A stretch of DNA of 64,000 bases. It comes from Candidatus Endomicrobiellum trichonymphae (lineage in GTDB: Bacteria > Elusimicrobiota > Endomicrobiia > Endomicrobiales > Endomicrobiaceae). Both the position numbers and the translations under genes were made by a program. Shown in pieces: positions 50,077-51,475 of the stretch. The stretch covers positions 62,001 to 126,000 of the forward strand of contig NZ_AP017459.1 in the NCBI RefSeq assembly GCF_002355835.1, given 5' to 3'. Each line of letters opens with the position of its first letter. Position 1 is the stretch's first letter. Under the pieces are notes generated by a model, which worked only from the letters and a program-made list of their open reading frames with translations, did no database searches and was not told the origin of the DNA.

Positions 50077-50223
50077 TCATTTTTTGCCGACAATTTTAAA
50101 AACCTTAGTTGAGCAATGAGGGCACACGCCCGAAACGGCTTTAATGCCGTTTTTCATCACTACGTCTTGAGGATCTTTCACTTCAACCTGTTTTTTGCAT
50201 TTCATACATCTCGCTTCTGCCAT
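50077..50223 (-). CDS. Small zinc-ribbon protein (DUF5679-like, 48 aa)
   Basis: ATG 50223 opens MAEARCMKCKKQVEVKDP, followed by GIKAVSGVCPHCSTKVF and ends IVGKK. Two CxxC pairs form a zinc ribbon. This matches the small DUF5679 proteins. It is intact and lies 56 bases from the tRNA-Gly gene on the same strand. Function is unknown. Confidence 0.8.
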   Translation of the reverse strand: MAEARCMKCKKQVEVKDPQDVVMKNGIKAVSGVCPHCSTKVFKIVGKK

Positions 50224-50846: not shown

Positions 50847-51060
50847 ATATCATTTTTACTGGATTTGAGAGAAAACATAATTTCTTTTACTTTTCCGGCT
50901 CCCAATTCTTCGTGTCCTAAAAAGTGCATTTTGCCATTTTCAAATTTCGCTGTTTCAGGTTTTGCGCTGTCATGGAAAAGAGCGGCAAATTTTAAAAGAC
51001 TCTCTCTTGTGATGTTCTCGGAAAAAGTGGCATTATTATCAAAATGTTTTTGCATGTCGG
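50847..51060. repeat. 214-bp inverted repeat, native arm
   Basis: This arm encodes the HD domain on the minus strand in its proper place. Its reverse complement recurs at 51262-51475 with one mismatch (position 51054 against 51068). The arms are 201 bases apart. Confidence 0.93.
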
Positions 51061-51261
51061 TATAATTTTCAGGGAAGTACTTTTTTAAATTATTGAGGAT
51101 GTTTTCTGCCGATTCCACAGTCTCAAAAGAATGCTGAAACAGTCCTCCCGGATGATAATAATATTTTCTGCATGTTTTTTTCATTTTCTTGATTTCAGCG
51201 AAAATCTCAGAAAGCAGTCCGCAGTCATCCATATCTTTAATTAAAGCTGCAGAATTTTTTA

Positions 51262-51475
51262 CCGACAAGCAAAAACATTTTGATAATAATGCCACTTTTT
51301 CCGAGAACATCACAAGAGAGAGTCTTTTAAAATTTGCCGCTCTTTTCCATGACAGCGCAAAACCTGAAACAGCGAAATTTGAAAATGGCAAAATGCACTT
51401 TTTAGGACACGAAGAATTGGGAGCCGGAAAAGTAAAAGAAATTATGTTTTCTCTCAAATCCAGTAAAAATGATAT
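51262..51475. repeat. 214-bp inverted repeat, displaced arm
   Basis: A reverse-complement copy of 50847-51060, read on the plus strand as FDNNATFSENITRES and FLGHEELGAGKVKE. It replaces the neck domain coding region of the nucleotidyltransferase gene. Confidence 0.93.

Follow-up and report, generated by a model that had tools for sequence, protein, structure and literature searches.

A 207-bp inverted copy in place of the neck-coding segment of a putative CC-adding-type tRNA nucleotidyltransferase gene in Candidatus Endomicrobiellum trichonymphae

In bacterial CC-adding enzymes, an absent or short flexible loop is the hallmark of the family (PMC7014341, PMC3925840), and motif D has been described as the protein template for the selection of CTP and ATP (PMC7014341). 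An architecture in which a segment gives way to an inverted copy of a nearby sequence is described by the four-point template-switch model (PMC7954356). A comparable architecture can arise in the tube: more than 85% of the chimeras formed by phi29 polymerase are inversions with an intervening deletion, commonly with 2–21 nt of complementarity at the junction (PMC1855051), and the overlaps have a mode of 6 nt and the distances a mode of 250–300 nt, with two or more parts being possible (PMC4595205).

Here, we analyze a 64,000-nucleotide stretch of DNA from Candidatus Endomicrobiellum trichonymphae (contig NZ_AP017459.1, positions 62,001 to 126,000; hereinafter, the window) that contains a tRNA nucleotidyltransferase gene in which the neck-coding segment is replaced by an inverted copy of the HD-domain-coding sequence of the same gene.

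The split gene and the inverted copy

According to profile matches, the minus strand of this region corresponds to a class-II tRNA nucleotidyltransferase gene that is split into two ORFs. The head-domain ORF (51827-51402, minus strand, 141 aa; PF01743, 6e-12) consists of 115 aa of genuine head sequence followed, up to the stop codon, by about 26 aa that are nearly all derived from the inverted copy. The ORF encoding the HD, body and tail domains (51457-50405, minus strand, 350 aa; PF01966 and PF13735) starts with a TTG codon inside the inverted copy and comprises about 63 antisense-derived aa and then about 285 aa of the genuine C-terminal part. The outcome of the rearrangement is a frame change with stops; the head and C-terminal parts carry no lesion other than the inverted copy.

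The arms reported in the first-pass annotation (50847-51060 and 51262-51475, 214 bp each, 201 bp apart, with one mismatch) are reverse complementary upon direct comparison, and the sole mismatch is the pair 51054/51268. The exact reverse-complement core is 207 bp long (50847-51053 versus 51269-51475), an exact tract of the kind that a four-point template switch produces. The donor (50847..51053, plus strand) is normal HD-domain coding sequence that is kept in relatives, the inverted copy (51269..51475, minus strand) occupies the former neck-coding site, and the 215-bp spacer between the exact arms (51054..51268) is normal gene sequence whose orientation and frame match those seen in relatives. 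No inverted pair of at least 30 bp with arms within 5 kb, other than the 50847/51269 pair, was found in the window, so that origin by chance is excluded. Likewise, the 207-bp pair was the only separated-arm inverted pair of at least 25 bp in a 420-kb sample of the genome that consisted of the window, 17 chromosomal stretches of 20 kb each (340 kb in total) and three small contigs. These three contigs (G000:C2-C4, L116-L118) are 5.0–5.8 kb long, and one of them, L117, is partly 91–94% identical to Candidatus Endomicrobium trichonymphae plasmids of the Rs-D17 type. Among the records searched, this limited identity suggests that the genome belongs to a close relative of strain Rs-D17 and apparently not to Rs-D17 itself.

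In a scan of a genome collection, 30 relatives were retrieved, which belong to Endomicrobium, Endomicrobiellum or other Elusimicrobia. In all 30, the gene is uninterrupted, with a single open frame of at least 481 aa spanning the site, and in none of them were the junctions of the window found. In a DNA search within the genus, no match from another genome crosses the return junction into the inverted copy, and no further DNA copy of the disrupted gene was found elsewhere in its own genome. The gene order with the M16 peptidase upstream is kept in the nearer relatives. The window also contains, next to tRNA-Gly(CCC), a 48-aa ORF (50077-50223) with CxxC pairs that resembles a zinc ribbon.

As a proxy for the ancestor we used L027, the closest relative, whose protein is 92% identical in the C-terminal part. 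About 220 bp of neck-coding sequence in L027 occupy the site at which the window carries the inverted copy, a difference that bears out the original reading that the repeat replaces the neck domain. Past the first 17 bp, nothing of the ancestral neck is left at the locus, and the flanks retain the ancestral order, i.e., a segment has been replaced as in the four-point model. The distance between the head and the C-terminal part is 243 bp in L027 versus 220 bp in the window, a net change of -23 bp.

The replaced segment includes the EDxxR-like motif D (xDPLRxLR; TDPLRMLRAFR in L027), in which residues D146, L148, R149, L151 and R152 are invariant in an alignment of 25 sequences. This motif is absent from the window copy of the gene and present in neither of the surviving ORFs. 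Given that both ORFs lack the nucleotide-selecting motif, the enzyme is probably lost; the ends of both are, moreover, antisense-derived, and judging from the sequence, loss of activity is very likely.

Enzyme family and the second nucleotidyltransferase

The initial assignment of the gene as tRNA nucleotidyltransferase-like stands, but it missed that the family lacks the loop and most resembles the Aquifex CC-adding enzyme rather than a general CCA enzyme. The loop region, from the DxD motif to RDFT, is 60–61 residues long in the 30 orthologues versus 73–82 in the second nucleotidyltransferase of these bacteria, and one additional loopless match, L054, falls in the first, loopless group. The head encoded in the window agrees with a deletion of the loop between motif A and motif B, the feature that characterizes CC-adding enzymes.

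The intact L027 protein scores 170 bits against PDB 3wfo, compared with at most 71 bits for CCA-adding enzymes and at most 58.5 for the Aquifex A-adding enzyme. In an AlphaFold model of the L027 orthologue (pLDDT 91.7), the 17 best PDB fold matches are 3wfo-3wfs, with TM scores of 0.70–0.78 by query length. These entries we take to be the structures of AaS, the class-II CC-adding enzyme of Aquifex aeolicus (Yamashita 2014). The L027 orthologue shares with AaS (PDB 3WFO-3WFS) the best sequence and fold match, the short loop and a motif D of the form xDPxRxLR, whereas the copy in the window lacks the neck and motif D, and the activity of the Endomicrobium family is a prediction. The AaS structures are described, without PDB codes, in PMC3925840. 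On these sequence and model comparisons, the disrupted gene is probably of the CC-adding type, i.e., its product would add two Cs to tRNA ends.

The first-pass annotation also called for a check for another CCA-adding enzyme in the genome, and such a check identified a second PF01743 gene (G000:C1:233285) that is intact, bears the loop and is under purifying selection. Its best match is the CCA-adding enzyme of Thermotoga maritima (102 bits). The longer loop is a feature this gene shares with the looped class-II enzymes, namely, the T. maritima CCA-adding and the Aquifex A-adding enzymes; despite the best score with the former, its sequence would be compatible with A-only as well as with full CCA addition. 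Neither of the two nucleotidyltransferases reaches the NCBIfam equivalog cut-offs, and the respective equivalog names were not adopted for this reason.

The contention that the tRNAs of this bacterium lack encoded CCA is confirmed for the genes inspected: CCA is encoded in none of 30, out of 43 tRNA matches in the genome. We infer that CCA synthesis would be carried by the looped enzyme. All but one of the same-genus genomes that are at least 90% complete possess two tRNA nucleotidyltransferases, and, according to the sequences, CCA synthesis in Endomicrobiaceae is probably either split or redundant, with one loopless, CC-adding-like enzyme and one looped enzyme.

Junctions and origin of the inverted copy

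Each of the two junctions contains a microhomology that is common to the L027-like target and the donor: ATATCATTTT, 10 bp, at junction 1 (51466..51475, minus strand; donor copy 50847-50856) and TGTCGGTA, 8 bp, at junction 2 (51260..51267, minus strand; donor copy 51055-51062). Such microhomology, identified here with L027 as the proxy, is typical of, although not obligatory for, a four-point template switch. The earlier suggestion of template switching is thereby supported, given microhomology at both junctions and the fit of the four-point model.

In the proposed scenario, one localized replication error comprising two template switches would break the CC-adding-type gene. Synthesis along the gene strand (a direction chosen arbitrarily) would reach ATATCATTTT in the neck-coding region, where the 3' end would switch to the opposite strand by re-annealing to these 10 bases at a site some 0.6 kb downstream, within the HD-domain coding part. 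About 200 bases would then be copied backwards from this donor, followed by a return, through re-annealing via TGTCGGTA where the neck ends, and by resumption of normal synthesis. In the product, the order of the head, HD, body and tail would be unchanged, with the neck of about 220 bp swapped for an inverted copy of 197–207 bp and the gene shortened by 23 bp.

Base 51268, which lies beside the return junction, is the L027 target base, whereas the donor carries the base that is conserved in relatives. Because the only mismatch carries the target base, the copied tract itself is without divergence, and, from this comparison, the mismatch need not reflect drift after the duplication given that the target site explains it; a target base at this position is what heteroduplex repair would leave.

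The layout (L to 1, 2 to 3 reversed, 4 to R) is the same as in short-range template-switch mutations, i.e., those of the four-point model and the quasipalindrome-associated mutations of bacteria. With these, the locus also shares microhomology at the switch points, a new perfect inverted repeat and deletion of the 1-4 segment. It differs from them in the long copy, of about 200 bp, and in that, judging by L027, the event would have started from the 10- and 8-bp microhomologies rather than from a long prior inverted repeat.

Between the window and L027, dN/dS is 0.13 for the C-terminal part and 0.22 for the head, with dS of 0.28–0.29, a substitution pattern indicative of purifying selection on the disrupted gene until recently. 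A neutral duplication dating back to the split from L027 would be expected to have accumulated about 59 differences between its arms (dS of 0.285 over 207 bp), and none is seen. Hence, if it occurred in vivo, the event would be younger than roughly 5% of that split, with the proviso that arm-to-arm gene conversion could erase differences.

Template switching is the mode of formation whether the structure arose in the cell, in the tube or as a minority allele. We lean towards a very recent in vivo two-jump template switch that disrupted the CC-adding-type gene, and favor it over an amplification artefact because of the exactness of the copy, the two microhomologies, the uninterrupted gene in 30 of 30 relatives, the zero divergence, the state of base 51268 and the location of the locus within a contig. 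The second, intact nucleotidyltransferase, itself under purifying selection, may serve as a fallback upon loss of the gene. Long palindromes are attacked by the SbcCD nuclease. A search of the genome of the window detected RecA but not SbcD, one half of this nuclease, so that long inverted repeats could persist in vivo, although a single missing model match is weak evidence. Across the genus, SbcD was above the cut-off in none of 42 genomes (G000, G003-G043) versus 8 of 14 control genomes. Against in vivo origin, almost every high-quality Endomicrobiaceae genome retains the gene, it is under purifying selection and the tRNA genes inspected encode no CCA; if the second enzyme adds only A, the loss would be lethal. 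Zero divergence, furthermore, is equally expected of an artefact.

As the genome of an uncultured flagellate endosymbiont, a kind to which the plasmid-like contig L117 also points, the sequence probably derives from phi29-amplified DNA of a single host cell. The phi29 chimera proposed at the outset as the alternative has to be weighed seriously: overlaps and distances are compatible with the published statistics, but we rate it below the in vivo switch. Under this explanation, to which we assign an appreciable though lesser probability, a two-jump chimera from multiple displacement amplification, or from assembly, dominates the local consensus and the gene of the bacterium is intact. The window shares with such chimeras the inversion with an intervening deletion, the 10- and 8-nt overlaps with inverted partners and the short jumps (about 0.6 and 0.2 kb); moreover, the bacterium could lose a conserved CC-adding gene only at a high cost. 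In another Endomicrobium genome (G010), this gene is broken at the neck, with its parts on two contigs, L121 (G010:C222, 1-270) and L122 (G010:C135, 1-970), and the contig end folds back at a quasipalindrome and contains a 71-bp direct duplication. The arrangement looks like an amplification or assembly chimera and suggests that assemblies of Endomicrobium do contain such artefacts, including in this nucleotidyltransferase gene. A perfect 82-bp inverted pair in Endomicrobiia bacterium MS502-22 (L021, 6631-6712 and 8394-8475) stops exactly at a contig end and is a probable assembly artefact. What counts against an artefact in the window is that a single molecule with two consecutive chimeric jumps, separated by about 207 bp, would have to outnumber normal reads in the consensus. 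A double chimera is rare given a rate of about one chimera per 22 kb (495 in 10.9 Mb of reads; PMC1855051). In addition, the locus is internal to a contig of 1,114,532 bp, with both flanks in order, and at 51268 the base is that of the target and not that of the copy.

A perfect 78-bp inverted pair with arms 299 bp apart is also present near a contig end in a termite metagenome bin (L016, 9494-9571 and 9871-9948) and may represent another template-switch event.

It is improbable, in our assessment, that the consensus captured an in vivo mutation that is segregating in the symbiont population or carried by a minority of it, although a very young allele would show zero divergence and a close relative, Rs-D17 genomovar Ti2015, shows 0.77 SNPs plus indels per kb (PMC7608387). 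A phase-variable switch or selected hairpin, in which the middle segment is inverted by recombination of the two arms, would be in line with long perfect inverted repeats and the presence of RecA, but was rejected as highly implausible because the middle segment is already in the ancestral orientation, the structure is absent from all 30 relatives and flipping cannot restore the neck.

Implications for CCA synthesis in Endomicrobiaceae

Because CCA ends are indispensable and none of the inspected tRNA genes encodes CCA, the lesion means either that a reduced endosymbiont can dispense with one of its two tRNA nucleotidyltransferases or that an amplification artefact has entered a genome assembly within a conserved gene. 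A real lesion would be a clean and very young case of template-switch mutation in which both switch points can be read. Should the lesion also be fixed, and should the looped enzyme make full CCA, a two-enzyme system would be collapsing to a single enzyme, a combination that we put forward only tentatively and consider rather doubtful. Because Endomicrobiaceae possess a loopless and a looped enzyme, how CCA synthesis is divided in this family can be tested directly.
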